This document shows, piece after piece, positions 14,111-63,399 of a stretch of DNA of 64,000 nt (its first letter is position 1; the number at the start of each line of letters is the position of its first letter). The stretch is taken from the NCBI GenBank assembly GCA_021442155.1, contig CM038221.1, positions 152,573,601 to 152,637,600 on the forward strand, in the 5' to 3' direction. Under the pieces are notes generated by a model that made no database searches, was not told the origin of the DNA, and was given only the letters and a program-made list of their open reading frames with translations. Origin of the DNA: Cymbidium sinense (Eukaryota > Streptophyta > Magnoliopsida > Asparagales > Orchidaceae). The position numbers and the translations under genes are program-made.

Positions 14111-14141
14111 GTTATTCACGATGTACGATGATCCCTGTTAA

Positions 14142-41013: not shown

Positions 41014-41125
41014 TGTGGACCTCATTTTTAGGATGAGCTCTCAACCCCTCCATCTTAGACATAAGACTTCTTCTAGACAATAAAAGTTTCTTAGTCTTAA
41101 GACACATCTAGTGATTAGGTAGACT
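41014..41125 (+). repeat. Leader-like segment L, copy 2 (short)
   Basis: It starts 'tgtggacctcatttttagga' and aligns with 45718-45830 on plus and with 7452-7340 on minus. After about 112 bases the similarity ends. Confidence 0.8.
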
Positions 41126-41229
41126 ATGACGCATTCTTTCTACGATCGTCGACCACAGGTCGAGTTCGATCTTTCACCTAATGGGCTTGTGACTTTTCTT
41201 GAGGTAGTTTGCTAGTGTTCAAATAGTCT

Positions 41230-42030
41230 ATAAATGGTTGACTTCAATCTAGCTTCTCATCCTTTTGACGACAACCTCCCATTCAAGAGAAAGTCTCTGG
41301 TGAGTTCAACATCTATAAGGGACAGGACTTATCTATTTTGGACCCTTATTGAAATGCACTCATCTTCTGGACATGCCAGTTCCTTGGTAAGTTTGGCCAA
41401 AGCATCTGCTACTACGTTCTCTGCTCGGGAAACCTTGTAGATGGTGACTTCGAGAATCTAGGCCAACAGCTTCATGGTATACTTATGGTAATGATGAAGC
41501 TTGGGTTTGAAAATCTTGTAGGATCCGGCAATCTGATTGATGACCAACTAAGAATCCCCAAAGATGTTGATGCTCTTGACACTAATTATGATGACTAACT
41601 CTAGCTCGTTAATTAAAGCCTCATACTTGGCTTCGTTGTTGGTGCAAGGGTTGGATAGATAGTATGAGAATCTCATCACATCAGCTCTAGAAGTTAAAGA
41701 ACTATTCATACCCCTTTCTTAGGAGAATAGATCGTGGTGCTTCATCTTTGTGAAAAGAAGATGCACAATCAAAATACATCTCTCATTTTAGTTATTGGCC
41801 TCCCAAGTTCATGATTTATTCAACAGGAGATCGCGAGAATCGTGAGAAGTGGGTGTGCAGCTAAGAAATTCGCTAGTGCCTATCCTTTTATCGCACGGAG
41901 AGGTATGAATGTGATGTCAAATTGTGAAAGTATCATGGACCAGCGTACCAAACATTTGGATAACATTGGCCGTGTCATGAGATACTGTAGTGGATTTGTT
42001 CTGGAGATCAAGTTCACCTTATGAGAAAGC
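41230..42030 (-). pseudogene. Tat-type RNase H and second RNase H (aRH), inverted fragment
   Basis: The minus strand is a diverged copy of the plus-strand region about 52140-52750. The conserved NNEAEYEAL box of the second, archaeal-like RNase H reads on minus near 41640. The connection from the first RNase H (the counterpart of FLAAHPLP) reads near 41850. Stops and frameshifts are present. Confidence 0.8.
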
Positions 42031-42099
42031 ATATACTATCGTAGCTTTTGGGAGGCGAAGATCAAAGCTAGCCAATGTTTGATCAAAGCTAGGTGAAGA

Positions 42100-42688
42100 T
42101 CAAAGCATATAATACTTTATAATCTACTACCCCAAAGCAAATGGCGAAGCATTCAGAAACTCTCATCCATTTTGAAGAAGACTCTTGATGATAACAAATA
42201 GTGGCATGGCAGTTGAAGCCTTGGGCTCGCACCACATCTGAACTCTAACTCAATATACTCCATTTTTCTTAGTATATGGGTCTAAAGCCATTCTACCTTT
42301 AGAAGTTCAACTCCCATCATTAAGGATTACATTGGGTAGCAAGATCACTTCAGAGCAGAATGCAAAGTTGTAGTTAGAAGAGCTTGAAGGTTTGGAGGAG
42401 AGTCGCCTATGGGCGTGCCAAAACCTCGAGTTGTACAAGGCCAAAATGATTCAAGCTCACAACAAGCTAGTCTGACCTAGGTCTTTACAAGTAGGAGAAC
42501 TTGTGTTAGTCCTAAGGAGACCAATTGTTTTCCATCAAAAGATGGAAGGCAAGTTTGAACCCACTTGGGATGACCCCTATGCTATAGAGAAGGCCTACCA
42601 AGGAGGATCATATCAGCTCATCGATTGTAAACGGGAACACCTGATGCTTCCAATTAATGAGCTTTACTTAAAAAAATATTACCCATGA
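42100..42688 (+). pseudogene. Tat-type Ty3/gypsy integrase, C-terminal part
   Basis: The reading YYPKANGEA (near 42130) is the region after the catalytic core. TLTQYTPFFLVYGSKAILPLEVQLPS, with frame breaks, follows. The last 61 codons are open and end GKFEPTWDDPYAIEKAYQGG, SYQLID and NELYLKKYYP, typical of the C-terminal GPY/F-like module of this lineage. It directly abuts the inverted RNase H fragment, so the 5' part of this pol gene is missing. Confidence 0.85.
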
Positions 42689-42689
42689 A

Positions 42690-45600
42690 ATAAATCATGT
42701 TTGAAAATAATTCTATCAAAAGAACAAAATCTAATTCCATTTCATCAAAATCTTCTCTTCTTTCAAGTGTTTGTTTGTCTTGTGAATCCACCATGATGTA
42801 TTTAAGGTAAGGCCGAGACCCTAGCATTCTATCCCTATTTCACATCACAAACACAACCTCCCAACGCTATTAGAATAGTGTGAGAGGCATCCTATTTCGA
42901 TTAGCACAATTAAGTTAGGTGTAAGAGAACCCGCGACATCATTTCTTAATGAGAATTCCGGTTGTCATCACACACCATTTCATTAAACTCCCATTGTGTT
43001 TAGGATAAGTGTGAGAGAGGCATCATATTCCTATTAACACATACACAAAATAAACATAAATCTTTTGTCTCAAGCTATTTTGATATGGGAGCAAGCCCCA
43101 TGTGACACTCACTCATTATTTGCTCTAGGTTGGGTCTTGCTTGTAGTACTCGGTGATCATTTGTTGGAGAATGTGAATCCTCGTGCTTTCTTTCTAACTT
43201 GATCATTGTAAACCAATGAGCACCTTGTTAGTATGGTAGGCTTCACTGCCCAGCCAGTAAGCTACCTCATGTTGATTTTTTCTTAAGAAGAAGTAAGTCC
43301 CCATGCTTTCTTCTTGAACTAGTCATCATGCACTAACTAGATTGAGTATATTTGAGGTTTAAAGTAAGTCCCCCAGAGGCTCATTTCCTCTTGACTACAT
43401 TTAAGTCGATATAAGTCCCAATGACATTCACTCAGTAGTCGCCCTAGGTCGGATGGCACCTGTCGAGTCGAAGGAAGACTATCCCAGCAATCAGTTCTGC
43501 TATAGGAGGATGTGAATCCCTGAGTTTTCTTCCTAGGTTGATTGTTATAAACTGATGGGCACCTTAGGTTGGTTGATGTTCCCTATGCTGACAGCGACTC
43601 ACATAGTGAGTACACCACTATATGAGTCCGTCCGAAGTTTTCTCCTTGAGTGGGACACCGAATACCTATTGGATATATAACTAGCCATATCATCTCCTCC
43701 AGGGTGTTGGATTAAGCCCTTTAGCGGCCCTATCCCCTGTGGACACTCTATATGGATCACGTCCTTTATGACCCATTTAGACATTACCCAGGTTACTCTT
43801 GGATTGGACAGTCCCCCTTTCCTAGTAGCCACCCATGTGGTTGGAGAATTTGTTGGATATAAATATTCTCCCTTGGTTCATCATCGAGATAGGTCTAGGT
43901 AGTTATAAGCTCCTTCTCAGTTTGATCCCTCTCAAACCAACAGGGTCCACGTTAAAATAAACTAAACAAAATAAATAAAATATTCGATTGTGGATTACGA
44001 ATTCAAGCCCCTAAAGGGTTCTTTTTCTCAAGAAGATATCATATCTTTAGGGCAGTGTTAGCAGAACTCCCTATAAGAATTATCTGACTACCTTAGTTGA
44101 GATAAATCCCCGGGTCGGTACTCACTTCATAGTCACCATTAGGTCGGGTTCAATCTATTTTGTCATAAGTAGGTTACCCCGGCAGTCATTCCACTTTGGA
44201 AGATATAAGACTATGACGCATTCTTTCTAGATGATATGGCCAAATGAGTCGTTCAATTTGTTGCCCAAAGAAACCGACGCCCAATGGTCTTTGGAAGTGA
44301 AATATATGAGTCCTAGAGCTTTCTTCCCTTAAATTGATCATTTCAAATCAAAGGCACTCCTTTGGTGAATAGCTCTCCCATCTGGTGGGAAGCTACTCCC
44401 TTTGGTTTAGTAAATAAAAGGTTAATATAAATTCCTTCCTAGTGTGATCCATCGCAAACCAATGGAATCCACCAAAATAAACTAAAAAAATAAAATTAAT
44501 CTTTGACTATTTTTGAGTTGATTTAAGTCCCCCAACGACATTCACTCAATAGTTAGCCCTAGGTCGGGTTCAATTTATTGCCCAAGTAGTCGATCTCCCC
44601 AATGGTTCCTTATTTTGGAAGATGTGAGTCCCCGTGCTTTTTTCCTAAATTGACCATTGCAAACCGAAAGGCACCCCCTTTTATTGGATAGTCCTACATT
44701 GTGGTTGGTATACTACTCCATTTGTATTAGTGAATCTGAGTTAGGCCTAGGCCTCTGCTCTACTCGGCGTTCATCGCATCGCAAACCAATGGGACTCATC
44801 AAAATAATCTAAAAATAAAACTAATATTTAACTATCTTTGAACTAATTTAAGTCCCCCCGGCATTCACTCAATAGTTAGGTTTGGTGCAATAGTTGTTGC
44901 CAATAGATTACCCCATCAACCTCCCTACTTTGGAGGATGTAAGTCTACTATACTTTCTTCCTAAAATACATGCGCATATTGAAAGGCATCCCTTTGGTTG
45001 GCTAGTCCTACTATGTGTCTAGTAGACTACACTTTTGGATTGATAAATCTGAGTTAGGTCTAGGCCTCCTTGGCTCTTACTCAGTACAATCCATCGCAAA
45101 CCAACATGGTCCATCTCAAAATCCAAAATCTAAAAATCTGAAATAAATTCAACAAAACAAATCAAATGAAACAAAGAAGCAAAATAATTAATCAATCTAA
45201 ATCAAATCTTTTGCTTCTTCTCAATAAGATGCAAATCTTTCTAGTCTCCCAATGGAGCTAGAATTCTAATCCCTCAGCGGATTTCACAACCCCTCCCTTG
45301 TGGATGACTTGAACTTGCCTCCCTAGTTGAGAGTTCACTTTTTTATCCCCCATGGAGTCTGAACAAACACAAATTAAATAAACAACAAATTAAAATAAAT
45401 TCAACTCTCTTCCCTTATGGAACTCATTCAAATATTTTTCTCCTCAATGAGACTCATATCAAATCAAATCTCTCATCCTCTTGTGGATGACTTGAACCTA
45501 CTTCCCTAGTGGAAGGTTCACCTACTCTATCCCTTAGTGGATTCCTCCCTCTCTCTTATGTCTTTGATATAGGTAGAGCCACATTGCACTAAGCTATGGA

Positions 45601-45704
45601 TTCCTTCTACACCTTGGGTTAGGGGTAGATTGTCTCTATTAGTGCATGTCGGTGTTGTTGATCATTTTGGTCAACATCTGATGTTTCTTTGTCACACCAC
45701 ACCT
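42690..45704 (+). repeat. 3' untranslated/LTR-like region with ~320-bp tandem repeats
   Basis: After the integrase stop comes 3 kb without coding potential. From about 43085 to 45130, boxes recur with about 320-bp spacing. 'cactca' plus 'ctaggt(c/t)gg(g/a)t' occurs near 43107, 43425, 44110, 44545 and 44868, each followed by 'ggaggatgtgaatcc' or 'gaagatgtgagtcc' and 'ttcttcctaa'. Tandem arrays between pol and the 3' LTR are known in Tat/Ogre elements. The final 500 bases probably include an LTR end, since a primer-binding-like site follows. Confidence 0.75.
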
Positions 45705-45717
45705 ATTGGGCGCCCTT
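45705..45717 (+). other. Primer-binding-like site of the Tat-type element
   Basis: The sequence 'attgggcgccctt' resembles the 'attggcgccgt' start of the primer-binding site of many plant Ty3/gypsy elements. It lies just upstream of the leader and gag. It is short and imperfect. Confidence 0.5.
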
Positions 45718-45920
45718 TGTTGATCTCATTTTTAGGATGAGCTCTCAACCTCTCCATCTTAGACATAGGTCTTCTCTTAGATACTAAGAGTTCCTTAATC
45801 TTAAGACACATCTAGTGAGTAGGTAGACACTCAACCTATCCATAAAGACTTAGAAGAGTTAGCCATAGGAATAGGTCATGCCTTAGGGGCGTCAGGAAAA
45901 TTTGTCTACCCTTAGCTTGA
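45718..45920 (+). repeat. Leader-like segment L, copy 3
   Basis: The segment starting 'tgttgatctcatttttagga' is shared with 41014-41125 (plus) and 7452-7256 (minus). Here it follows the primer-binding-like site and precedes gag. Confidence 0.75.
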
Positions 45921-46029
45921 ACCACTCCCCAGCCTTTGAGGTTGGGTCTAGTTTTTACTCTACTTATCCTACCCAGACATAGAGGAGAAATAAAAATCGC
46001 ATGATCAAGTGGTATCATACCGATTTTGA

Positions 46030-48130
46030 GATGGAGGCGCGCGCCGGTTGAGAGGAGGTACCTATTATGATCACCCCACTGGTTACAGTGAACCAGTTTC
46101 ATTCTCTCTCTAGGTCAGACAGAGAGGATGCTAGGAGGATCCGTACTTCACCTCCATTAGTGGCTCAGCACCAACCCTTAGTTACTCGGAGCAAGAGATC
46201 ATATGCCGGCCTCCAATCAGTTCTATCGGTACTTCTGGATGTTCGATCCGGAGCTCAATTTGATTTGAGATTTATCATCCCCCGTAGCATGGCAAAATAG
46301 CCCAGGAGAGGGCCGAGGCCCATACATCTGCTCATATCACCAAGAGGGAGAGGTTCGCCAATGGCGCCCGTCAATTTTCCATTTCTACACCACCAACCAT
46401 ACAGATAGCATCCTACTTACTGGGACCAGTCATCACAGAAGGACAGCTCCTATTCATAAAGAGTCGGTGGTGTCTCCACCACACTACTACCCTCCATCCA
46501 TCATCATTTGTTCACGTCACGACATCTCTAGTTCTACCAAAGGCCATGAAGGCCATATTCAAGGAGAAGTGTACCCTGTTGGTGATCCACACTGAGAATC
46601 CTACTCCATCTACACGCACTATGGTGGTAGAGCTCTCCCGACCTTTTGCCTTAATGGTAGTGCGGAGGGAGTGGTGACCCCGAAGCATAGTGGTTGTCCC
46701 TTCACCAACACACCAGTTCAGTAGGACATGAAGATGGCAGCAGCTATTATAGAGGGAGCAAATGACAACCCTGTTGCACCCATGATTATAGAGCCTCCTA
46801 GGAGTGTCACACCTTTCAGAGTCAGTGGTAATCAAGAGTGTGTCTTTTCTAGTGAGCACAGTCCTCATAGGATTGACTCTCCAGCAGTAGGGGAAATCCA
46901 GTGCCTCTTAGTACATGATAGTGATCACACCAATCAGCAAAAGATATTTGTGCCCGTTCAGGTTTATCATTCTCTTGAGGAGATAGTGGCACATTATCTT
47001 TTAGAAAAGAAAGAAATTTTGAGGTATGATTCTGCGATGAGGAGAAGATCATCTTTGATCCCAACAAAGATGATTTGTTGGGAGTCTCATCATGGGTATG
47101 CATGGTAGATACTAGAGGATCCTTTCTCAGAGAGCGAAAGGCTATGGAAGGTGATGATGTCGAGCAGGAAAACACAGCCCACTCGCATCAACACCTCCTA
47201 GTGCAGTTAAAACAGAAAGAAGAAAAGATATATAGGATGGTAAAGCAGCTTAAGGATTTGTTAGCGGTTCAGTACTTCAGAAATAAGCCCCAACATTTCA
47301 TCCTACTACAACTGAGACCATAGGAGTTAATGTCAAAGCAAGGTAGCACTAGCATGTATAGGAAGGTAGTGTAAAGAAACTCCATACAAGAAAAAGACAT
47401 AAAATCCATGGTTGAGCAGCAAATGAAGGAAGCGTTTGCTCAAGCCCGCGGAGGATCATCAGTTCCAAAGGGTAGACCCTACCTAGAGGAATTCAATGCA
47501 ATCCAATATCCCAAGGGTTTCGTGCCACCTTCCTTCAAGAGCTTTGATAATAGTGGAAACCTGATGCGGCATATTGCACACTTCAGGGACAGTTGTTGCA
47601 ACGCCGGTGGTAGCGACGCTTTACTTTTCTACCTCTGTGCTTCTAGCGAGAATAACTTTTGACTAGTATCTTTGAACTTCCCAAGTTCGAAAGATATTTT
47701 TGAGTTGAGCGACTCTTTATCAAGAGGTTTGCTAGAGCTCGATAAAGGGTTCTTGTGATGATCGTTGTAGTACAACAACACCTAGGTGAGTCCCTTATTG
47801 ACTATATTCTCCGATGACATAACCTGCATATGAAATACGAGCCGCAGCTGTCTGAGCAGCATGCCATTGAGATTCTTTTAAAGAATATCCATGGCTCGGT
47901 CTCCTTCATTCTTAAGGGCTTCACTATCAAAATATTTTAGAAACTAATCAACAAGACGTCTAGTCTACAATGAGAGGCCAAATCGTTGCCTTTCCAAGAC
48001 CAGTTGCCCAAAGCAAAGCCGCAGAAGGTCTATGAGAAGAAGTCGAGAGCAGTGACAATAGTAGATAAGGGGAAGAAACTAACTAGAGATCAGTCCGAGA
48101 GACCACGACCTTAGCAGCCTTCGCTTCCAC
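46030..48130 (+). pseudogene. Tat-type gag
   Basis: The recognisable core is PYLEEFNAIQYPKGFVPPSF followed by FRDSCCNAGGSDALLF (47485-47630), matching retrotransposon gag of this lineage. After a frameshift come QHLGESLIDYILR and HAIEILLKNIHGSVSFILKG (near 47780-47920). Upstream, open stretches at 46067-46300, 46728-47108 and 47075-47323 are the poorly conserved N-terminal part. No zinc knuckle is evident. Confidence 0.75.
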
Positions 48131-49509
48131 CTTCTCTACCACCAGAGGCGACCTATAAATATATCCGTAGTCTCATAGACCATGTTGCACATATACCCAT
48201 TAGGTGGTTATGGTCCACCTACTCTTTAAATAAGCTTAATAAGCCTTGTTCATTTAAGAGGAGGTAATCAAGAAGATCTTTAAGAACCTCTTAAAGTCGA
48301 TTTTATTTACAGAGCCTAGAAGATGGAGGAAGTGGGTAAAAGTCATGATCTGCCACTTAGTATGCTGGGTCATATTTTGGAAGATTTTTTACCTTCAAGG
48401 ATTGGCTTGAACATAGCTTCAAGACCGATGCTATAGTTATCTTGAAGGAATACCTTGTTGAACAACCATCTAGTTCCATCAGGATAATCCTTGGGGATAC
48501 TTGCCATCTCTCCAAAACCAAAGAAGGTTGAGATATCGCCTTATCCAAAATCTCTAAAAATATCATTCAGAAGATCAAGAAATTTTTCTTAGTGCAATCA
48601 CTCAAATCAACATCAAGGAATGTTTGCAAGTTGCCTGTCAACTTAAGGAAAGGGGAACTCGGCGGTGCGGTAACCTATGTCGGCCGGGATAGCTAGTAGC
48701 ACAACCATGCAGGTCCGACCTCAGGTCTCATTTCTACCACATGAGACTTCTCCTACTTCAACTAGCTCTTCTTCTTCTACTAGTAAAACTCTTGTATCGA
48801 CGGATAAGAGCACCAAATCCCTTACCTCTCTTTCTTTTACTTGATTTACTTTGTACTTCCTATTCCAAGAAATTAAAGAATAAATCTAGTTTGAATTACA
48901 CCTATGTCACTTCTGATGGGTTATCTACTTCTAGTCCTAATGATAACTCTTCAAGTCAAAATAGCTATAACAATTTTGATCTTCCTCTTTATGATTCTGA
49001 GTTGGACTTTCCTACTCTGAATACTACGGGTTCGCCTCTTGAGATAAACTAAGAATCATCCAATTTCGAGGTTCCCATAGGAGAAGCTGCATGTGAGCTT
49101 GATGTACAGGTAGAATCTTCCATTACCCTGCCACAAGAGATCATCGAAGTCAACCTCCATAGTAGCAAGGTTCTACCTCCTAGGGCAGCACCTCAAGATA
49201 AAGGGAAACAAGTCATTGGTGTAGAGAATCAAGAAGCCCCTCCACAGGATGCTCCACTCTTGGATATGCTTGTGGAGGATGACCCAGGTGACTACAATGT
49301 CTCTCATCTAAGATAGTTATCATCTAGCAAAATATATCGATGCCTCATCTTATCCAAAGAGATGAGGGATCATTAAGGCTCTCATCATGAAATATGTTTA
49401 GCTTCATTGCCGCTATTGGTGAAGATGCACATTATGCAAAGGAAGCCTGGGGATCACTTTCATAGATGAAGACCTTCTTAAGGGGACTTGGAGCATAGCG
49501 TCCCCTACA
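48131..49509 (+). other. gag-protease linker of the Tat-type element
   Basis: No domain is recognised. An open stretch at 48741-49052 gives a Ser/Asn/Asp-rich tail without similarity I can name. The position between gag and protease suggests a linker. Confidence 0.4.
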
Positions 49510-49890
49510 TCATAGTTGACATGCGTAGTGGCGAGTTCTCATTGATCTAGGTGCATCAGTGAACATTATGAGTATAAAGACTCTTATTATTTAGGGATCA
49601 ACATCTCCACACTCCGAGGAGATCGGATGATGTTAAGAGGATTCAATGAACAAGGCGAGAGGGATTTAGGTTCCATAATGTTACCCTTGTAGATAGGTGA
49701 CTGGAAGACTGAAGCCAAGTTCTATATAATTGATTTGAAAACTTCATTTACTACTTTGCTCGGTAGGCCTTGGATACATCAGAACAAGATAATTCTATCC
49801 TCCCTCCATCAGTACATCAAGTTCAAAAAAGATGGGATTGAATACCATGTCAATGGAGATGAAAAACTATTTTCGTTAGAGGGTTGAGAT
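49510..49890 (+). pseudogene. Tat-type aspartic protease with altered active site
   Basis: The active-site region reads LIDLGASVNIM, so the D-S/T-G triad has become D-L-G. GFNEQGERDLGSIMLP, AKFYIIDLKTSFTTLLGRPW and IHQNKIILSSLHQYIKFK follow, typical of this lineage with its GRPWIH signature. Several stops precede the active site. Confidence 0.8.
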
Positions 49891-50286
49891 TTATAAGGAT
49901 GTGAGCTACTATCTTCCTCAACACACCCTTTCCCATGAACTTGGACAAAATTCAAACACAAAAGAAAAAGAAATTGAAGAAAAAGAAAGAGCAAAAGAAA
50001 AAGAAAAGAAAAATGAAAATCCAAGTGAACAAGAAAGGGAAATTAAAGAAGAAATAGAGTTGCATATCACATTTCACTCACAGTCCATTCCATCATATGA
50101 ACATATGGTAGAATGACTCAACCTCCACTAGGCGAGGCGAGGCGTAAATAGAGGCGCTTCTAGAGGTGGAAGACCCCTAGTTGGCCATCAACCAACAGAG
50201 GTTTGTTCCGGGAGTACCTCTACTATTCATATAAACTTGGAATCTAGAGGATGAGTCTAATGTGATTAGTATACCTAACCCCTCTC

Positions 50287-50927
50287 GTGGTTCCATTGGA
50301 GGTGACTTCGATCCAACAAAAGACCACCTCTAGACAAAGCAAAGTATTTGAATTAGGTTTATGTGAAACTATTAGGCAGCAGCTGGGAACCTTAGCTCTA
50401 ACCTCACTTTCATCTCAAAAAATTGAAGGTTTAATAGTTAAAGAAGCCCCTAAGTCTTCTAGTGATATGAAGCTGAAGAGATTCTTTTTGGGATCTTCAT
50501 CCTCAATCCTGAAGTTGATGTAGAACTTGAGGAGAATGCATTTAAAGAATTAATAAAATTACCACTTGACTTTTACTCGCCTTGTGTTCATAATCTTATA
50601 CAGAAATATTTGCTTCCTCATACATGGTCTAGGTACAGGTCAAAGTACTTTGAAAAGCTATGGAATAATACAGGCAGGGAAGCACAATCAAGAGCAGGAC
50701 TAGGATTCGGTACAGTGGGTCTAGTCGATGATGACGATTACTGCTTGGTTATTACTAATCATTTGGAGTCTTATAGATTCTTTTCATACAACACCAACTC
50801 TTATAAGAATGTGTGTTTAGAAATCTTAGATGATCCAGATGATCTTCAGATCAAGGATGCACCCCCAGAATTTGAAGAGGAGATTCATTCAATAATAGAC
50901 AAGCTCAAAGAAATCAACATCGGATAG
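50287..50927 (+). pseudogene. Linker between protease and RT, with a glycine-rich box
   Basis: The open stretches encode an acidic, Ser-rich region. The box GLGFGTVGLVDDDDYCLV lies near 50700-50750, and the end reads APPEFEEEIHSIIDKLKEINIG. A glycine-rich box before RT is common in Tat/Retand-type polyproteins. Its role is unknown. Confidence 0.55.
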
Positions 50928-51129
50928 AAGAAAATCCACCGACATGACATCGTTGTTGAATGAAGAAGAAACCAATGATTTAGTTAGGCAATCGAAGTTT
51001 AAAGACGTTTCACATGGAGTTATGAAGAGATGGGATTATCTCCTAACATAGCAGTCCATAAGCTCGCAATAGATCCTAATAATACCCCTATCAAGCAAGC
51101 TCCTAAACACATGCGATTAAAAATTGAAC

Positions 51130-51800
51130 AATAGGTCATTTCTGAAGTCAAAAAACTGATTGATGCTGGTTTTATCAGAAAAGAAAAATACCCACCGGTT
51201 AGCCGTATTAAGCTAAGAAGAAGAATGACCAAATTTACATTTGCATCAATTTCAGGGACTTAAATAAAGCATATCCTAAGGACGAATTTCCTCTTCATAT
51301 ACTAGAATTAATGGTGGACATTGCCTCATCTCATGCAGTATTTTCTTTCATGGATGGATCATATGGCTACAACCAAATCAAGATGTCTCTTGAAGATGAA
51401 AGAAACACCGCTTTTCGAACCTCGATTAGAATCTTTTGTTATAGGTCATTCCTTTCGCCTTGAAAATGTCGTATATACCAATGAGGTATGAATCGATCTT
51501 CAACAAACTCATCCATCATCGTTGAGTGCTGATGATCTAGTAGTCAAGAGCAGAAAAGGAAGACCATCTCTTTGACTTGAGAGTTTTCAAATGGTTAAGA
51601 CAATATAATCTCAAAATGAATCCTGTGCATTGAATAACTTTAGGAAATTCTTTGGGTTTGTTCATCGGAAATAGAGATAGATCCTAAAAGATCAAAGTTA
51701 TCTTAGAAATGTCACCTTCTAAAAGCTTAACACAACTCGATCTTTCCAAGGACGGTTAACATATCTGAGATGCTTTATCTCCAACCTGTCAGAGAGATGC
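51130..51800 (+). pseudogene. Tat-type reverse transcriptase
   Basis: The readings are IDAGFIRKEKYPP, FRDLNKAYPKDEFPLHILEL, FSFMDGSYGYNQIKMSLEDE and TAFRTS (51160-51430). The frame then breaks. The VDD catalytic box near 51530-51545 is interrupted by stop codons. KMNP and LTYLRCFISNL-like remains follow. The enzyme is inactive as written. Confidence 0.85.
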
Positions 51801-51828
51801 AAGCCATTCTTAGCCCTTATCAAAAAGG

Positions 51829-52446
51829 ATGCCAAGTTCAAGTGGGATGATAAGTGCAAGTATGTCTTTGAAGACATCAAGCAGTATTTTGGTGAAGCCG
51901 CCAGTTTTAGCAGCCCCTATCCCAGGCAGGTCACTCATCCTCTACACTGCTGCATTAGATGACTCTCTCGGTGCTCTGTTGGCCCAAGCCAACGAAAAAG
52001 GGAAAGAGAATGCTCTCTACTATCTCAGTCATCATCTGATCCCTGCTGAAGTGAACTACTCACCTATTGAGAAACATTGCCTAGCTTTGATCTTCTCCCA
52101 AAAGCTACGACATTATATGATTTCTCATGATGAACTTGATCTCCAAAACAAATCCACTGCAGTATCTCATGACACGTCCAATGCTATCTGGACGTTTGGC
52201 ATGCTGGTCCATGATACTTTCAGCTTTGACATTACATTCGCATCTCCGGAAAAAGCACATGCACCAGTGGATTTCTTAGCAGCACACCCACTTCCTACTG
52301 ATTCTCCGCTTAGTGATGATCTCCTTGATGAACAAATCATAAACTTAGGGGAGGCCGACAACTACCGATGGGAGATATATTTTGATGGTGCAGCTTCTTT
52401 TCACAAAGGGCATCACGATATATTCTCCCAGGAAAGTCAGGGGTAG
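51829..52446 (+). pseudogene. Tat-type RNase H and start of second RNase H
   Basis: The open stretch has LILYTAALDDSLGALLAQ, NALYYLSHHLIPAEVNYSPI, EKHCLALIFSQKLRHYM and FLAAHPLP. The second, archaeal-like RNase H then starts with WEIYFDGAASF, whose Asp is the first catalytic residue. A frameshift at about 52430 leads into the next frame. Confidence 0.9.
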
Positions 52447-52826
52447 GAATAGTTCTTCTAACTCAAGACCACGATGTGATGAGATTCTCATACTATCTTT
52501 TCAACCCCTGCACCAACAATGAAGCTGAGTATGAGGCTTTGATTATCATTCTGGAGTTAATCATCATAATCAGTGTCAAGAGCATCAACATCTACGGGGA
52601 ATCTCAGTTGGTCATCAATAAGATTGTCAGGTCCTACAAAGTTTTCAAACCCAAGCTTCGTCATTACCATGAGTATATCTTGAAGCTGTTGGCCCAGATT
52701 CCTGAAGTCACCATCTATAAGGTTCCCCGAGCAGAGAAGACAGTAGCAGATGCTTTGTCCAAACTTGTTAAGGAACTAGCATGTCTAAAAGATGAGTCTA
52801 TTTCAATAAAGGTCCAAAATAGATAA
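52440..52826 (+). pseudogene. Second (archaeal-like) RNase H of the Tat-type element
   Basis: CTNNEAEYEALIIILELI contains the catalytic Glu region, and IYGESQLVINKIV holds the position usually occupied by Asp (GDSQLV), here Glu. IPEVTIYKVPRAEKTVADAL, with the final Asp, and SKLVKELA end the domain. The GDS to GES change would weaken catalysis. Confidence 0.88.
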
Positions 52827-53049
52827 GTCATGTCCCTTATTGATGCTGAACTCATCGAGAGAATTTCTCTTGAAGGGGAGGTTGTCATTGCCAAAAAGGA
52901 TGAGGAACTGGATTGGAGGCAACTGTTTAAAGACTATTTGAACACTGGCAAACTACCTCAAGAAAAGTCACAAAGTCACAAGCCCATCAGGTGAAACAGA
53001 GCTCTCTCCACGCTCCTATACACTATGTACCGCCTTTTGATCAAATGTG

Positions 53050-53530
53050 GTTACTGTTAGTCAAAAATGAAGCCCGTGGCATTGTAATCGAGGTATATTC
53101 AGGTCTATGCAAAGCACATCAATCCGTCCGATGATGAAGATAAAGATTAAGCAACTTGGATACTACCTTCTTGATGATTATGATCGCATGGATGTAATTA
53201 GATGCCACCAGCGTCAGGTACACGGTGTGGTCTTCTACCAACCACCCAACATTTTACACCTTACTTTGGCCTCATGGTCATTTATTGGGGTACCGACATT
53301 GTGGGTTTGATCGATCCTCCTTCTTCCAAGGGTCACCGGTAATTCTAGCGCCACCGACATTTTTCCAAGTGGGCCAATCCCACTCAGAGAGGTCAAAGCT
53401 CAGCATGTGCTTCAATTTTTTAAGAACCATATCGTAAATAAGTTCAGGGGTGCCTTGACGAATTAAATTCGATAATGGTACTGTATTCAAAAGCACCAAA
53501 ATCAACAGCTTCGCTAGAAGACACGGTTTA
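53050..53530 (+). pseudogene. Tat-type integrase, truncated
   Basis: The zinc-finger part reads EVYSGLCKAHQS with the His pair. GYYLLDDYDRMDVIRCHQRQ follows, where the second Cys of CHQC is replaced by Arg. The core continues with GTDIVGLIDPPSSKG, EVKAQHVLQFFKNHIVNKFRG and DNGTVF, the second catalytic Asp. Similarity ends at about 53530, before the catalytic Glu. Confidence 0.88.
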
Positions 53531-53559
53531 GACTGGAGATAATCCCCCTAATTCATTTG

Positions 53560-56500
53560 AATCTTCAGTTCCCCATTGTTGATTGAGTGTGAGAGAGCTA
53601 GAGGAGTCTTTTCCCAGTGATCCCAAGCTCCCTCAAGCACTTGCCGACTTCATCTACTCGATTTTCACAAGGTGAAAATAGGGGAGCTCTATAGGATTTT
53701 GAACTTAGCCAATACTGAATATCAACCAAATTCCCTTAGCAAGCTCCATCAGGATCAAGTCGAGCTTTCCCAAGCTCTTTCCCAAGCTCCAAAGGCAAGG
53801 GAGGATCCAATTCAATCGAAGCCAAGCTCACTTAGAGGAGGAGTTGGTCCATAAAGCCATCCACTCAACCTCAAGAGCTATAACTTTCACCAAAGCTTCT
53901 TCTCAACCAGACGAAGCTTCTCCAAGGGAATCGAGCGCCGGTGAGGTATGCCATTTTCAACCATTAAACTCAATGTGGTGTGGAGCTTTATGAAAGAAAT
54001 TTTGATCCCATAGAATTTTGACCGTTATATGTGCTTGCAATTAGGTTTAGATGGCGTGAGTTGATTTTCAATCCAATCTGGGCTTGATCTAGCTCGAATC
54101 TTCTCTTTGAAAGTGGACGGTCCCTATTTTTCATAGGGAAGAATAGGGAGGATCTCTGGCCGTCCATCTGTGCATTTTGGATGGACGGCCGAGATTTAAA
54201 ACATGCTTTAGATTAATTTTAATCCCTCTGAATGACGGCTTTATTCTCAGTCGTCCGATCCTTGATCGAAAGGCTGAGGGAAAAGAGTGTAGCATCGCTG
54301 CCACACGGTGCTATGATGGGATGTTTAAGTGGCCACAGCAGCGCAAAGGGATGCCACTCACATGCATAGCAGGTAGGGATTAAGGAATTAATTAGGATTT
54401 AAATAATTAATTACCTAAACTTCTAAAATTCATGTCTCAACCTAAAAAAATCAGAAAAATATGAAATAAATTACATTAGAAAGATAATTGAACATGGAAT
54501 ATTCTAAAACTAATTTTGATTAATTTTAAATACTTCTTTTCTCTGAATTTGGGTTTTATTAGAAATCTTAATTTACTAACTACTCTTTAATTAATCCACT
54601 AATTATTCCCAAACTTCTTAAGTATATTTTGGGGGATAACTTCTGCATCCCCTAATTTTCTTGGGATTTTTTGGTGGCTTATTTGGAGAAATTACTAATT
54701 TTTATCCTAATTATCCCCCCTAATATAATTAAGGATAATTAAGGATTTGATTAGTGGTTTAATCCTTTATTGAAGTTGATTAAGGTCTGTTTCAGTGAAT
54801 AGGATATTTAGAGAATAATTTTGGGGCATTTTCCCTAAGCTATTCCTTAAACCCCCTTTTCTTTTTTAATCTTTTATTAATTAAGAGTTAAATCACTAAT
54901 TACCCTCTTAATTAATTTTTTAAAATTCTAAAACTTTTCGGAACTCAATTAATCTACTTGGGGTAGATGCTTAGGTGTGTTCAAGAGAAGTAATTAAGGA
55001 AATCAAGATTCAACTCATATGTGTGAGGGGTGTTTTGAAATTACTTAAGTTAAACCTCTTAGCTTAATTAATCATTAATCATGAGCCAAATTATATTAGA
55101 CCCTTTTCTTCCTAGGTGTATTACAAATTTAAATTCCTTGTGAGATTTTATGTCATCTCATTGGCTCATAATTATTTGATTAACTATGCTAAGGTGGTGT
55201 AGGTAAGAGATAATTAACATGATTAATTTATACCTTAACCTAATCAAAATATAAAATAAATCTAATCATCTAAAAATTGAACAAAAATATCAAACACATG
55301 TAGGAATGGGTTAGGAACAACAAACTCACCTCACATTTTTCAAATTAAATCAAACTCAAACCTAAACAAAAATCACATTAAACAAACTTTGATTTTTTTA
55401 AGCTTTCTTATTTCTTAAGATTATTTTTACGAATTAATTAAAGTGAATGTGTTTGTTTACATGCTTTCATTACTTTAGTTCTTTCCTAACATGCTAAATA
55501 TGTGTGTCATATGATTTCATACATTCATGATTTTAAAAAATAAAATTTGAAATGAAAATATTTCCTTTATGTCAAATTGCATGTTTTGGCTAAAGTAAGA
55601 ATATGAGTGGCTATTATTACTATTAAATCTAAATTATTTTAAAATATATGAATATATAAGCAAAATTAAAAGTGGTTACTTACTTATAAGCTTGCATGTG
55701 AGTAAAATATAAGGATGTGCTTAGTGTAGTTTTCCTTCTTCTCTCTTTGGTATAATTTTGAATAGGATTTGGCAAAGTGTATGGTTCATTTCAAAAGAAA
55801 TCAACACTTGCTTAATTCCATCTTCTATTCATTCCTATGCTATGACTTAAGAAGGACACCTACACTTACACATATAAATTGCATAAATAAAATTAAATCA
55901 ACCAACACAAACTTTTGCATTCTTTCTTTTCCATTCATTTCTTTTATACACATATTTGTATTTAAAGAAAGTTGTATATTGGTCTGGATAACCTCGATTG
56001 TGAGCTTTAAGTAGCCCCAAGTAGGTGTTGTATCTTACACCACTGGTGCTAACAATGGCGCCGTACTCACTTATTCCTTTCATACATTCATGTGTGCATG
56101 TGAAAATTGAATAAGAAATCCCTTTTCTACTTAATGAAAATCATGCATCATAAACATCCAAATATTCTTAAATAAATTACTTAGCATGTATCGTAAAGTG
56201 TGCTAAATATTCTCATTTGCATGTATAGATATACTTAGGGCTCATTCATATGCATGTTATACATGTTGGGAGAGAAATGAAGTGATATATTTTTTTATGA
56301 ATTTAGTTCATTTTAATTAATCTTAAAATGCTTTTCTTTTGAGTGAGTTTATTTAGAGTTCATCTAAACTTAGGATTAATTAAAATATATAATAAAATAA
56401 TCACTAAACAAAATTAAAACATGAATCCACTTTAAAAATTACTTAGTGGAAGGAAAGAGAAGTTCTCTTTCCCTCTCTATAACTTAGTAATTAATTGTAG

Positions 56501-58620
56501 GATTGACTTGAACCTAATCAAAATATAAAATAAAATCAATCTGAAATAATTAAATCACTTAAATGAAACCCTCCTCTAAGTTGAACATTCTTCACACTTA
56601 AAAATTCTAACTTAAAGCCATAGCTAAGCATACCACACAAACCCCTAAAGCACACACATTAGGTTAAGTCACAACTTCTAACTTTAGGTTAGGATGGTGC
56701 ATGATTTGATGTTTGCTTTTATTTTGTGATGCAATATTTTACGACTGTGTGCATGTGCGATGAATGATAGATCTTAGTCAACCATTTTTCTACAAATGAT
56801 TGTGCTTAAGGGCACAATAGTGCTTATACCCCAAGCATAATCCAATATAGGTGGACTTAGTCACCCATGTGTGTTAAGTCCAATATACATGAGTGGGATT
56901 TGTATGATTTGTTTTAGCTAATATCTATTTTACAGGTATTAGTTAAATTTCTATTTTTTTCTTTTTTCAAGTAATTTTTGGCAATTAGGATTTTGGAATG
57001 ATTGTTATGAGGATTAGGATGAGCATTGGTCATAAGATCTCATCTATGAACTATGTGAAGCCTTTGGAGCATCCACCTTTCAACCATCCAAAAGAAGGAA
57101 CCAAAGAAGAAAGGAGAAAATAACAAGAAAGAAGAAAAGAAGAATGAAGAAATGAAGCTTGAAGACCCACATAATAATAAATTCTTTACTTAATTATATT
57201 TAATTCATTTGTAATCCGAGTATAAAGTAGAGCTTACCCAATTTATTTTTGGTTTGTGAGGTGGTACACCACAATGGCTTCTTATTCTTTTGTGATTAGC
57301 TTTATAAATTGATTGAAGTTTATTTAGCTTGTGCATTAAATGGCATCATTTTTCTAGTTTCTTTCTTGCTTTATGTATGGCCTGGATGATGATTAGACTC
57401 TTAGAAAAAAATAAATCTTCTGCCAAATTTAATAATTCAAAATTAAAAATAAAGAACTCATAACCTCACCTAAAGCTTAGGCTTAAAGTAAAGATAAAAG
57501 AATTAGCAACCCCTTAACTGGATGAGTATTTCTTTTATAATATCATGCATAAATACATCTGGTTTCACTCTTGATTGGAGGGCTTCCACCTTCTTGAGAA
57601 ACTTGGACCACAGAGAGCCATGGTGGAAACTAATTTTGGCCAATTATCTTACTTCTCATACATTAGGCATATGAATCTTATTAGAGTCAAAATGATTGTC
57701 TAAAAATAAAAATAAAAATGAAATTTGAATTGCATTAGATTTAGTTTATTTGAAGCATACCATTATATGATCTAGTCTCTTTAGGGAGTGAGTTTAAGGA
57801 CTTAGTCTCTTTCTAAATTAATAACAACCTAATTATTTTGTATAAAGCATATGACTTGCCTACATGAATTTAAAATCGTAGGAGGAGTTAGTTGGCCACC
57901 CAGCATTGTAAGTCCAAACAAATGGTGGTTTGTCCTCTCGAAGGCAAATCAAATACCCATTTTCACATAGATTTAGGTTGTGCTTTTGGCCCTCCAAAAG
58001 TTCCTTAGATTTAGATTCCTTTGTGGGTTATAAACATAAATCCTCACCTCTTAGGAATTTCTATAAACTTGTATTAATTATAAGTCTAACATTCTAATGA
58101 AAATTTCACTCAAACAAATTAAATCAATTTCAAAAATATAAATCCTAATCATAGGATAGTTTGAGGTGCTCGCTAGGTTTCTTAGCATCATGAGCATCTC
58201 CTACTTATTTTCATTTAGCGATAATAACTCTCTTTGATCAACCTCATTTGGTTTTCAAAATGAACTAATCGATTGATAGTCCTTTCATATTAAAATATTT
58301 AGAGACCATTATTTACCTTAATCATGAGTTTTCCTATGGAATCCGTCCTTAGGATGTAATAAACTATGGAGGCTTGCCCCATAGGGAATTTAACAAACCT
58401 AGTTTAAAATAAACCCTGCTTTACTTTTCCATGTAAAGTGGGGGAAGAATCTCTAGTACACCTCAAGACTCAACATCCTTAGAGTCCTTATTTTGGTGAT
58501 TAAGTCCATTGTGGGTGGTGATTTCTATCTTCGAGATAGTGCACCTCTCCTTAATATCGTACCCGATCACCTAATAAGTACATCTGATTTGCATGACATC
58601 CGACCAACTCGATATATATT
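53560..58620 (+). repeat. Large noncoding repeat module, copy C (plus)
   Basis: This is the most complete copy in the window and follows the truncated integrase. It has the same segment order as copies A (reverse) and B. Its start region (53600-53960) matches A near 4600-4900. An inverted-repeat-like block at 54110-54200 ('ggccgtccatc' ... 'gatggacggcc') is shared with A near 4240-4400. One subrepeat lies at 55965-56075. The end near 58500-58600 carries 'tatcttcgagatagtgcacc'. No coding frame is visible. Confidence 0.75.
55965..56075 (+). repeat. Single subrepeat box in module C
   Basis: The box 'ggtctggataacc', 'gagctttaagtagcccca' and 'gctaacaatggcg' corresponds to one of the four units in copy B (8960-9860). 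Confidence 0.8.
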
Positions 58621-60199
58621 CATGTTCTCATTTATCTTCTTCTTTCCACCATAGAAAGGAAAGAGGAATAGATGAGGACTTAGGAATAATAAATTTCTCC
58701 CATAATGAGCTAGAGTTTTCTTAGTTTGTCACCCCCCGACAAATAATTACAGAAGGTAAATAGATTGAGTTTGTTTTAAGCTTTTAAAGATTGAATTCTA
58801 TTTAAGCAATTTTAGATTGCTACTTAATTTAAATTAATTTGATTTGAAAAATTGATTAATTTGAATATATTTAAGAGTTTAGATCATGTCATCTTTATTT
58901 TAGTTCTTAACAGAGGATTAGATTCATTATAGACGTAATCGCCTTCTACATTTCACTAATTTGGACTCATTATAATAGATTTTAGGCTTTGTTAAACTCG
59001 CACCCCTAAAATTAAATCGGAAACAACCCGAAAGATCCTCGACACTTGAATTTAAGCATTCAGCGTAGTATCGGGGACCATGCGGGTGTATTTAAGAATG
59101 CCTTAATTAACGCCTTTTGTTCGCTTGTACAATGCATTGCGAATCCGGTGGCGTAGAAGACATTATAAATTGATCTAATATCTTATTAGATTTTTTAGAT
59201 TAATATTTAATAGATTCCAATTTAGCTCGGCTTTTAGACATTAAACTTTGCACTTTAAAGTCAAAGTACATGCGATTTGTAGCTTAGATAATTTCATTTA
59301 ATTAATGAAGTCATTGACTTTGACAATTAGAATGAAATTTTCTAATTTTTGACTGAAGGAACCCTTATGATTTTTGTAGAATTTGATTTAGTATCGCTGT
59401 CTGCCTGTGTATAAAGAATTGCAGATCTCGTAGCATTGAAGACGTCCTAGACTTATATTGCAATTTGGAATGACATATCACGATTCATATTTGCTTCTTT
59501 AATAGTTGAGCTTACGAGATTCATCTCTATTTCTTATGCTTATTACTAAGCTTTCCAATTTATCACATACTTCTAATGAATTGTTTGACTTATCTCAGTT
59601 AGATTGAAATGAATTGTGAGAAAGTCTATTATTCATTAGGGGACTTGTCGCCTCGATAATAAGTCACGAGGCTATTGTAAGCATTTGTATAGTTCAATCA
59701 TGGATTCAACTAGGCTTATTTCAATTCATTCAATGTATAATATGGTTCAACCATTTATTAGGAGGCAACACTCATGATCTGTGCTTGTTGATGAACCACT
59801 TAATCAACCTCCTTAATTTGTGGATGCACATTTAAGCTTCTTATAGACTTTAGATAGTTAAACTATGTGTTCATACAAAATATTTTATTTATCTCAAAGT
59901 GAATAAGAAAGTAATTATAATGATCAGTGATGACTCTCTTTTATGTTTGTTAATAAGCCATTTAAACCCATTTCTAACCTCCTACAAAACTTTTTCCTCT
60001 CCTTTGAGTCATTTGAAATGAATCATTGTAGAATTTAGTATTTATAAGGTTGACTTGTTCCTATCCAACGATGAGTTATTTGGCTTAATATAAGTTCTCC
60101 TTTCAAATTTAACACGTGCACTTATATTTATTTTATGCCTTTGTAACTTCACATTTGTTATGCTCAAAATTTCGATTTAAGCCTTTTATTTAATTCCAT
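58621..60199. other. Gene-free interval with weak ~285-bp internal similarity
   Basis: No coding region is recognised. Two blocks near 59134 and 59418 share 'attgc(g/a)atc', 'gtagaagac'/'gaagacgtc' and 'tata(a/t)att' words at about 285-bp spacing, suggesting old tandem repeats. The origin is unknown. Confidence 0.35.
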
Positions 60200-60409
60200 T
60201 TAAATTCTTTGATTATTTCTTTTTTTCATTTTATTTTCTAAGTCTAAAAATTGACATTTGCAACCTCCTGAGTCATCCTCACAGAGGTGCATCGAGTGTT
60301 TTTCGACACGCTCTAATGAGTGAGGATGGCCTGACACCACAACCATCTTCGACCACGCTGCTACTCTATGGGGCATTAGCTTGGTCATGAAACCTGCATT
60401 AAGAAACAA
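60200..60409 (-). pseudogene. Short captured exon-like fragment, origin unknown
   Basis: On minus, 'tttcttaatgcag' just above 60400 looks like a splice acceptor. It is followed by an open stretch containing GFMTKLMPHRVAAWSKMVVV and a Cys-containing CEDDSGGCKC. The start partly repeats the sequence at 60461-60480 ('taatgccccata' in both). I do not recognise the protein. It belongs to the captured chimera by position. Confidence 0.4.
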
Positions 60410-60471
60410 TCACAAATGTATATATACTTTCACATTCATACTTCCTCGCACTCGCTACACCTTATGGGGCA

Positions 60472-61011
60472 TTAAGTCTTGGAACCTGGAGTATAGTATT
60501 TTGCAAAGGAATCTATCATTCTCTGTGCCTTAGACCTGTTGTTTTGTGCCTCTTCTACAAGCCTCACCATCTTAGCAACTGCAGAGTGTTCAGCCAAAGC
60601 TGTAGTCTTCACACTAATGTAGCCATCCATATTAAGAGTTCCACCCCAAACTAATGACTGTGGTTGCTTGGATACAAAGAAGGATTCACCAGTAAGGCTC
60701 TTCTCATCAACCTCACTTCTTCCTTCTACCACAATCCCATCAATGGGAATCACTTCACCGGCTTTAGCAGCTAGGATGGTGTCTACCTTCACATCTTTCG
60801 CGTCAATGATTTGGCCTGTTTCAGCCAGAATAGCCTTTTGAGGTGCCAGATTCATCCGCAACGACATCCCTGTAGTTGCCTGGCTTGCCATGGATTCAAG
60901 CCATTCAGCCAGTTTTCGTTTAATGCAGTAACTCAGTAACCTCTTCTTTCTTGTTATTTTCAAAATAGAGGGATATGTTCTAGCATTTGGGAGGCATCCC
61001 CTTTCCTCCAT
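60472..61011 (-). pseudogene. PPR to heavy-metal ATPase chimeric open frame
   Basis: The open frame encodes 179 residues. The first 17 (MEERGCLPNARTYPSIL) are the end of a pentatricopeptide repeat. From about residue 34 it is the actuator domain of a plant P1B-type Zn/Cd ATPase (HMA2/3/4 group): LAEWLESMASQAT, APQKAILAETGQIIDAKDVK, AGEVIPIDGIVVEG and VDEKSLTGES with the conserved TGE loop. GYISVKTTALAEHSAVAKM and the start of the next segment (IDSFAKYYTP) follow. The CPC membrane motif and the DKTGT phosphorylation site are absent, so no transport is possible. It looks like captured gene pieces, still open across the junction. Confidence 0.88.
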
Positions 61012-61020
61012 ATCTCATCT

Positions 61021-61310
61021 AAAAGCTCGTATGCTTTCTCCATCCTTCTTATCTTGAAGAGGTGCTTTATGAGAGAATTATAGGTAGCTACTGGGAAGAC
61101 AACCAGGTTCATTCATCTCATTAAAATTCCAAGAGCTTCTGGTATCCTCTTTTGAAACAGAGAGCATCAATGATGCAATTGCAAATTGTCACGTCCAGAT
61201 TACACCCTTTCTTTCGCATAGCAGCAAAAGCTTTTACCACTGTGCCAAGCCTTCCAGCCTTAGTCAATGAATTGATAAAGATGCGTATGTGAACAGATCT
61301 GGTTTGCACT
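61021..61310 (-). pseudogene. PPR protein fragment
   Basis: On minus, FINSLTKAGRLGTVVKAFAA followed by MRKKGCNLDVTICNCIIDALC is a textbook pentatricopeptide repeat. FNEMNEPGCLPS and a frameshifted continuation lead to the repeat end at 61011. PPR proteins bind organellar RNA. About two and a half repeats remain, with at least two frameshifts. It lies between the IMPL1 fragment and the PPR-ATPase frame, on the same strand. Confidence 0.85.
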
Positions 61311-61585
61311 TTGAAGATATTATGTCATTCCGAAACATTTTAGCTTCACGTGAATTTCCTAAACACACCATCCATTGAGAATTATGTTTTGGCTTCTTAT
61401 AACTAGAGGAAACTCATCTTGCTTTTAAGATAGAGTGCTTCTACCTCTTCAACATGTTTGTACCTGTAGAATGGGTTCAAGAAAATCAAGGAGACACAGC
61501 ACTCGTTCTTGTATATGCAGTTGGTAGGCTCGAGTATTCGAACCTGGGAGAGGTGTGATCAAAGCAACTCTGAGAAATTGAAGGT

Positions 61586-61755
61586 TCACTGTATCTCCGG
61601 TGGCTTGTTAACGACATCCATGACAACCTCGGCTCCAATCTTTGCAGCAAGCTCGACGATCCCAAGGAGATCCGCCGCAAGAACTGAGCCCATCGACTCT
61701 GCTCCGACTCTCAGATACTTCCTCGTGTTCGGAAAATCGATAAGAAGTACCCCGT
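61586..61755 (-). pseudogene. Fragment of IMPL1-type inositol monophosphatase
   Basis: A splice-acceptor-like 'ttgttttcag' precedes 61755 on minus. The exon-like stretch that follows encodes FPNTRKYLRVGAES, ADLLGIVELAAKIGAEVVMD and VVNKPPEIQ, then a stop. This resembles the start of the mature chloroplast inositol-monophosphatase-like protein IMPL1, where a similar ELAAKTGAEVVM stretch leads into the domain. The catalytic metal-binding motifs lie further on in the family and are missing here. The match is short but distinctive. Confidence 0.65.
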
Positions 61756-62000
61756 CTGAAAACAAGGTAAAGGTTTCGCGGAAAAGCACAGATTTGTCAA
61801 TTTTTTTTTTTAGGGAGACTGGAGCGAGAAGGAGCGGAAGGAAACTGAATGAATGGGAGGAGCGTGGTTTATGGTGGTTGAGGAGAAATCGAATTTATAG
61901 GGGGAAGGCGGGAAAGGTTGAGGAAAAAAATTCGATGTATTAGAGTAGCCGGGATGGGCGACTACATGGAATGGCATCCAATGGGAATATTTGGGCAGCA
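61756..62000 (-). promoter_or_regulatory. Promoter-like segment upstream of the captured chimera
   Basis: On minus, 'tataaattc' (61899-61891) lies in 'cccctataaattcgatttct', a good TATA context. It is followed by a pyrimidine-rich leader with 'cgctccttctcgctccagtc' and then the acceptor at 61756. The arrangement TATA, leader, intron end, exon suggests a promoter and 5' end captured together with the IMPL1 piece. Confidence 0.5.
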
Positions 62001-62299
62001 AAAGGGATTGGTTGGCATATATAATCAGATAAGTATATATAGTACATAACCATACCCTATAGATTTATTGAGTAATTTAATCCTTTTTCTATCCCTCTTT
62101 TCTATTTTAAATTTCATTTTTTAACTCATCCGTAATTGACTTTCATGTGATTTCAAAAATCTATATATATATCTTCTAATTTTCACACCTCAAATTTTTT
62201 TGTTGTCACATTGCAATGTATGTCATTACATCAAAATTCACACAGATTCAGATAAATGTCATCATGCAATAATCATATGCAATATGCATATCAATCTTA

Positions 62300-63330
62300 G
62301 ATAATTTTGCTATGTCGGACGCAACGACGCAGTCCGTTTCGTAATCGGAGGCTGTTTGGTTGCTCGGCGTCAAATTAAGTCAATTTAAGCTCAAAATACG
62401 CGTCGTCACTTTCGACCACTCGATTTTTTGTGCAGACTTGTCCGAATTGAGGGCGAACAATCTTACTTGATAGATTTCAATGCTGTTAAACGCAATCAAT
62501 TTTGCAAACGGATGTCGCTTCTCCATCTCGCCGACATGTAGAAGCGTTAATGACTCGATCGTTTGATCGGTTGATCATCAAGTTATGCAATATTTATATT
62601 CTAACAAGCTTCGACATTTTGAATGCGATGGCGAAGTCTGTTCGTCGGTCGGAGGTCATTTGGGTTGATTTTAGATGTTCAATGTACTTTCAACCTCTAT
62701 TTGCACATTATCACTTCTCGATCATTCATTTGCACAAATTTGTTCGAATTGGCGTGAATAATCTCATTTGATATTTTGATATTTTAACACCGCATCAATT
62801 TCAAGAACGGAGGTTGTTCGAACATCGTCGCGGCTTCCTGACTCTGATATGCGCGTCGGCACATTGATAGCTCGATCGCTTGATCTTCAAGTTGTGCAAT
62901 ATTTATATTATGACTAATTTCGACATTTGAATGTGATGGTGAAGTACGTTCATCGATCGGAGGTCATTTGAGTTGATTTTGGTGACGCTCAATGTATTTT
63001 AGCCTCGATTTGCGTGCTGCCACTTCTGATCATTCGACATTTGCAATGCACTCATCCAAATTAAGCGTGAATAGTTATATTTAGTAATTTTCAAGTTTTG
63101 AAGTTAACTGCGTGATCAATTTCATGAACGGTCGTTTGGACATCGCCAGCTTCCGACTCGATATGCAAGCATTAATAGCTCGATCGGTTCTCTTTATTAT
63201 GCAATATTTATATTTTGACCAATCGATGTTCTAAAGGTGATGGAAAATTTTGTTCGTCGATCGGAGGTCATTTCGACTATTTTCGGTGACATCTAGTACA
63301 TTTTGAGCTCACTCTCACCCACTTTCAAAT
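62300..63330. repeat. ~305-bp tandem array, about 3.3 units
   Basis: The box 'cggagg(c/t)(t/c)(g/a)ttt' occurs at 62346, 62650, 62958 and 63262 (spacing 304, 308 and 304). Between boxes, recurring words include 'tgcaatatttatatt', 'aactcgatcg'-type and 'gcgtgaat'. The array is richer in CpG-containing words than its surroundings. The interval 62001-62299 before it holds nothing I recognise. Confidence 0.85.
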
Positions 63331-63399
63331 CCATCGAATTTGACTTGTGGGATTGACTTGACTTATGACATATATATGGAGGTCAACAAATGTTCTGGG

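Follow-up and report, generated by a model that had tools for sequence, protein, structure and literature searches.

The window, a stretch of 64,000 nucleotides (C8:152573601-152637600 of a 3.53-Gb assembly), contains four clear host gene pieces at 61.84-60.48 kb, all on the minus strand. In order on that strand they are an IMPL1-like first exon, a UBP14-like first exon, PPR repeats and a segment of an HMA2-type ATPase. They most likely (probability about 0.7) are cargo inside the LTR of a high-copy retrotransposon family, acquired by template switching onto host RNAs followed by recombination of cargo-bearing copies. The family is probably of Ty3 type, and its host is probably an orchid. The same LTR sequence surrounds different cargoes, the copies are modular, and every identified piece has one orientation; the HMA, cyclin and HAD-phosphatase cargoes are of RNA origin. 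The arrangement is not a chance one, as block 60904-61842 is found again on C16, on C11 and, without 61467-61541, on C6. An earlier sequence-only reading had proposed three captured pieces in one orientation; the minus orientation is correct but the count is not, the UBP14-like exon having been missed.

Gene capture by LTR elements is already known, and what is new is its repetition inside the LTR; no description of serial host-gene capture inside plant LTRs was recognised in the literature searched, a scope outside which most subscription papers fell. Arguments for exon shuffling by LTR elements usually rest on single cases. Here one family in one genome provides single-gene, multi-gene and recombinant LTRs as intermediates, with donor-like loci still present, and the order of capture, the switch points, and splicing versus template switching are directly testable in the LTR family of the window. 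With cargo in the LTR, each insertion could carry a promoter and coding fragments jointly to a new site.

The LTR and its cargo have the following parts (window coordinates, strand).

40401-63388 (-): LTR, 5′ TG near 63388, 3′ end ...GAGCTCACA at 40401; ends common to other copies
62316-63390 (-): 5′ part of the LTR, containing tandem repeats of ~305 bp
61839-62172 (-): LTR sequence upstream of the cargo, TATA-like CCCCCTATAAATTCG (about 61892-61899); 84-89% to L042
61625-61798 (-): IMPL1-like exon 1 fragment; 93% to C7:55028911-55029085
61462-61607 (-): UBP14-like exon 1, shortened by a deletion of 12 nt at its end, and 26 nt of intron 1; 86% to C7:9.63 Mb
60906-61466 (-): PPR gene fragment; 89% to C5 locus L019; PF13041, E 2.4e-7
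60904-60911 (-): switch point from IMPL1/UBP14/PPR-type to HMA-type copies; the two match sets overlap
60483-60911 (-): HMA2-type fragment, 30 nt of exon B with exons C and D; introns of 796 and 97 bp absent
60394-60482 (-): LTR unit joined to the end of HMA exon D (CTCCAG/GTTCCAAGAC)
60350-60393 (-): next LTR unit, after a splice-acceptor-like site (TTCTTAATGCAG/GTTTCATGACC); related sites in other copies
58706-60350 (-): 3′ part of the LTR; stretches common to HMA-type and PPR-type copies
41014-58705 (no strand): nested insertion in the LTR; TGAG direct repeat at 41010-41013 and 58706-58709; retroelement-type RNase H ORFs
40401-41013 (-): 3′ end of the LTR past the nested insertion

Host gene fragments and donor-like loci

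Genome searches with each piece, as the sequence-only reading had recommended, lead to four places: C5 for PPR, C7:9.63 Mb for UBP14, C7:55.03 Mb for IMPL1 and C4 for HMA. The pieces therefore match different loci rather than exons of one conserved gene, and the central proposal of that reading, that a mobile element captured unrelated host genes, finds support. Misassembly of unrelated loci is hardly conceivable, since the IMPL1-UBP14-PPR joins are found again in independent loci on C16 and C11 and the PPR-HMA join is present in a duplicate differing at many sites; the little that could be said for it is that, ~4.6 kb beyond the right edge of the window, the self-match of L021 is interrupted for 100 bases (4596-4695), probably by a gap in the assembly.

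The PPR repeats and the heavy-metal ATPase actuator domain had both been correctly recognised, the latter being a P1B ATPase actuator domain at 60483-60911 (-) that matches PF00122 with E 5.5e-31. A 180-aa minus-strand ORF (60472-61014) fuses the PPR tail with this domain. Its nearest protein is HMA2 of the orchid Dendrobium catenatum, which is 86% identical to it over 71% of the query, and none of 81 hits at E<=1e-20 (174 candidates) spans more than 79% of the query.

On C4, the HMA locus that resembles a donor has four exons, A-D, and between them three introns (2544, 796 and 97 bp) bounded by GT-AG. All eight cargo copies compared lack introns at these sites: the window and L009 have part of exon B plus C and D with two introns absent, and L010-L015 have exons A-D with all three absent. 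The HMA cargo therefore passed through RNA. Small indels lie at or near the exon joins in L010, L013, L014 and L015. Exon A of the C4 locus has a frame error, so this locus is possibly not the true donor but a sister of it. The cargo stops at the exon D donor (CTCCAG/GTTAGC), and then passes into LTR sequence that comes after an AG in other copies.

The IMPL1-like fragment lies in a block common to the window and L018 that extends to 61842. The exon seen by the sequence-only reading is real in that it has its 93% match on C7; the gene name, like a reading of IMPL1 exon 2, is our presumption, and the C7:55.03 Mb exon has no Pfam match. The PPR gene at C5:17.08 Mb, the match for the PPR piece, has one frameshift. 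Near 60915 a few nucleotides may, on a weak match, derive from a CCDC22-like piece; the name CCDC22 is in part presumed, its Pfam match being weak (E 0.0012, below cutoff).

The C7:9.63 Mb locus that matches the fourth piece has a PF17807 hit and is presumably UBP14-like. Three loci on C19 (L069, L070, L071) match it uninterrupted through intron 1 (365-381 bp). This cargo retains intron sequence, and its template was thus unspliced RNA or DNA; an unspliced transcript seems the probable template, and DNA-level or pre-mRNA capture is possible for this gene. At the UBP14-to-PPR join CAGGT is common to both sides, and the join falls within the intron, whose sequence runs on in the C19 copies, so that it looks like a later switch within the cargo. 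Two UBP14-bearing C19 copies, on one strand and 14.2 kb apart, are 88% alike over 690 bp and may be the two LTRs of one element, each with cargo. C19:4588838 and C19:4601465 (L069 and L045) were rejected as an LTR pair, as their UBP14 lengths differ. Elsewhere, on C2, C4, C8, C16 and C17, there are UBP14-like copies (L046-L051) with exon 1 fused to exon 2 without the intron.

The carrier LTR

LTRs of the family are about 4-5 kb in length, with common ends TGT(A)TTGACC... and ...GAGCCCA(CA); that of the window is split by the nested insertion of 17.7 kb. The sequence-only reading saw no clear termini, and those found near 63388 and 40401 lie outside the coordinates it covered. With the 377-bp end of the window copy as query there were 5508 first-look candidates, and 40 of the 40 scored matched; with the acceptor region of L020 there were 4053, of which 40 were scored. 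The end motif is present in 11 of the 12 loci L026-L037, the window itself among them.

A PBS-like sequence follows two of 11 LTR 3′ ends (L029 and, imperfectly, L033) and bears a resemblance to that of the Ty3 Tat/Ogre lineage. A G-rich tract immediately precedes the starts of L041 and L042 and is absent before L040. These two signals occur in separate copies and were not seen together in one element, and neither the LTR 3′ end nor a PBS was found in L040-L042. On C10, C11 and C14 the LTR stretch that precedes the cargo is present in two same-strand copies 12.1-14.7 kb from each other; these are candidate LTR pairs. Members of the C14 pair are 79-87% alike, and the window stretch (61839-62172) is about 83% alike over about 70 bp to both. 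Two neighbours on C12, about 80% alike, were rejected as a pair because their structures differ. No same-strand partner was found for the block of the window and no target-site duplication was seen at the ends of the window copy, which may be a solo or truncated LTR; a CAAAA-type duplication, its boundary ambiguous by 2 nt, is present in L014 and related copies. The same LINE lies on both sides of L010, L011 and L014 and on one side only of L012 and L013, and these five copies, all within 0.29 Mb of C8, are probably duplicates of one insertion.

The promoter-like segment of the sequence-only reading lies at about 61839-62016 and consists of LTR sequence that other copies share. Judged by the TATA-like sequence just upstream of the cargo, 61839-62172 could act as a promoter from which the LTR transcribes the cargo; three compared LTR copies read CCCCCTATT at the TATA-like position.

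RT/RNase H remnants at 63.76-65.1 kb are doubtful as the element's own internal region, as the LTR starts at 63388. They have no match in the sequence before the LTR of L042 and may belong to a neighbouring element. The nested insertion contains RT-type RNase H ORFs at 51814-52826 (+) and an inverted 83% repeat (41172-42096 and 52060-52996). Arrays of a ~130-bp tandem repeat lie near LTR copies L017, L022, L025 and L039.

Three routes had been offered for the capture: Pack-MULE, Helitron or retrocopying. The last fits best, because the HMA introns are absent, the identified pieces are sense and the surrounding element shows features of an LTR. A combination of several unrelated fragments, as here, is typical of Pack-MULEs and Helitrons, and DNA-level capture by either would account for the intron retained in the UBP14 cargo. 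It is nevertheless very unlikely given the loss of introns from HMA, cyclin and HAD-phosphatase cargo, the sense orientation of all identified pieces, the TG...CA-type ends and the same-strand pairs. Neither Helitron ends nor MULE inverted repeats are seen at the shared termini: the ends of L010, L012 and L014, inspected by eye, form an inverted repeat over the terminal 2 nt at most, L009-L016 contain no inverted self-match of >=150 bp, and the family's common ends stand in place of the 5′ TC and 3′ CTRR of a Helitron. An inverted copy near C11 (L017/L025) was rejected as a Pack-MULE, since LINE-inserted copies lack long inverted repeats and others are same-strand pairs.

Related LTRs with other cargoes

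On C19, LTR sequence carries UBP14 but none of the other pieces (L045, L069). The block of IMPL1, UBP14 and PPR is present on C16 and C11 and, without 61467-61541, on C6, and a CCDC22-like ORF comes after it; these ORFs were read on C16 and C6 only. HMA is alone in the copies at C8 135.9-136.25 Mb, and on C2 it accompanies a kinase piece (PF00069, E 1.1e-4) that we take to be BSK-like. Among the copies found, PPR and HMA are together only in the window and L009. The latter lies 104 kb away (C8:152.74 versus 152.63 Mb), shares the flanks and at least part of the nested insertion, and is a recent genomic duplicate of the window copy. The two differ by few substitutions and many indels, with higher divergence at 57.9, 58.8-59.5, 60.3 and 62.25-63.15 kb. 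Gene conversion between them was dropped as an explanation; most 150-bp windows differ by 0-3% in gapped local alignment.

Ten further LTRs were sampled by similarity to the L020 acceptor region (ranks 2-12, with one skipped that lay on the chromosome of a chosen one). L052 and L054, 85% alike, contain HAD-phosphatase and cyclin pieces. The L052 cargo matches two loci, one for an HAD-phosphatase (C11:94.41 Mb) and one for a cyclin (C20:10.25 Mb), in four blocks each, and in both cases the inter-block sequence is absent from the cargo; FMN/HAD phosphatase is a name that we assume in whole or part. L061 has a malectin-like piece and L057 a LINE-type RNase H, the L055 and L056 ORFs have no Pfam match and may be RING-protein-like, and no host gene was recognised in L053, L058, L059 or L060.

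Every host piece identified is sense. Among 67 sense ORFs of the ten LTRs (5075 aa) six Pfam families are matched at E<=0.01 (Cyclin_N 3, HAD_2 2, Malectin_like 1, RVT_3 1, Hydrolase 1, Peptidase_A3 1), and among 43 antisense ORFs (3034 aa), the systematic antisense scan being of these ten LTRs, none is matched at that threshold; L052 and L054 are one lineage, and the counts are therefore not of independent events. Two copies considered as cargo-free LTRs were rejected: in L042 part of an ABCC transporter is recognisable (PDB match, E 1.1e-11), and L039 has an ORF that matches no Pfam family. This 105-aa ORF (L039 3455-3772, -) extends into the LTR unit and is perhaps a captured exon.

Ordinary processed pseudogenes might land side by side in a repeat by chance, and the spliced UBP14-like copies elsewhere in the genome are of the kind that this would require. 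Such an origin has scarcely any likelihood: the same block order recurs on different chromosomes together with common LTR 3′ sequence, and different genes occupy the same LTR zone.

Mechanism of capture

The sense, partial and mostly spliced pieces and the short words shared at joins fit switching by reverse transcriptase between RNAs; these words, about 3-8 nt long, may in part be fortuitous. During reverse transcription the enzyme would switch from element RNA to a host transcript and back to element RNA, building sense host gene pieces into the LTR between its promoter-like 5′ part and its 3′ part. Separate LTR lineages would acquire separate genes in this way. A later switch would then join an IMPL1+UBP14+PPR-type copy to an HMA-type copy, giving the window mosaic, which would subsequently be duplicated as genomic DNA. 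Template switching as the enzyme-level step is what we infer from the pieces and their joins in partially read cargo-bearing elements.

Exon trapping, in which a host 5′ splice site is spliced onto an LTR 3′ splice site and the chimeric RNA is retrotransposed, is a possible though doubtful alternative. It agrees with the HMA cargo, which ends at the exon D donor and runs into LTR sequence following AG elsewhere, and with the pyrimidine-rich AG site kept in seven of the 10 sampled LTRs (the same rule is met by 187 of 15810 positions, 1.2%). The cyclin cargo, in contrast, breaks off within an exon, and its junction with the LTR lies upstream of the AG, so that of two cargo-to-LTR joins tested one fits splicing and one does not. 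The HMA join is moreover one ancestral event copied many times, the UBP14 cargo is unspliced in L069-L071, and microhomology is also available at CAG/GT joins. Because the cyclin join misfits splicing and the UBP14-PPR join looks like a later switch, template switching is favoured, with exon trapping left for HMA. It is unlikely that the LTR is a standing host-exon trap whose conserved acceptor repeatedly takes host exons, with retrotransposition of the chimeric RNA and recombination of the copies. If true, the family, possibly thousands of LTRs, would be a reshuffling library of plant exons behind a mobile promoter.

Comparison with known systems

Bs1 of maize is likewise an LTR retroelement with several unrelated host gene segments, from three genes; these are described as within the element, whereas in the family of the window they are in the LTR and differ among high-copy members (PMC13317346). 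The mosaic elements BARE-2 and Veju resemble this family in having been remodelled by inter-RNA switching, BARE-2 in its LTR region, but their donors are other retrotransposons or unknown sequence and those here are host genes (PMC13317346).

Primate SVA_F1 (MAST2) and chimpanzee pt_SVA_D6 (STK40) have, like the HMA-type copies, the 3′ end of a host exon joined to the element. These joins are attributed to splicing and then amplified, and members add exons of other genes (PMC6139936). SVAs are non-LTR elements with first exons at the 5′ end and the window has a plant LTR element; splicing fits only one of the two joins tested here (PMC6139936).

Retrogenes in plant LTR retrotransposons are described from pepper, tomato, potato and rice as intron-less host genes between directly repeated LTRs, in contrast to the short multi-gene fragments inside the LTR of the window (PMC5664825). 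Ty3 elements of the Retand lineage share the presence of tandem repeats. In the survey of that lineage, LTR length is 315-1194 bp and the tandem repeats are placed after pol and ahead of the 3′ LTR, unlike the family of the window, where repeats and cargo are within an LTR of about 4-5 kb (PMC11963269).

Other features of the window

Two minus-strand ORFs of 343 aa (26437-27468) and 176 aa (24025-24555) have no match above the Pfam cutoff; we take them to resemble plant meiotic DYAD/AM1-type proteins. ARAGORN predicts a tRNA-Met (cat) gene at 14141-14213 (+).
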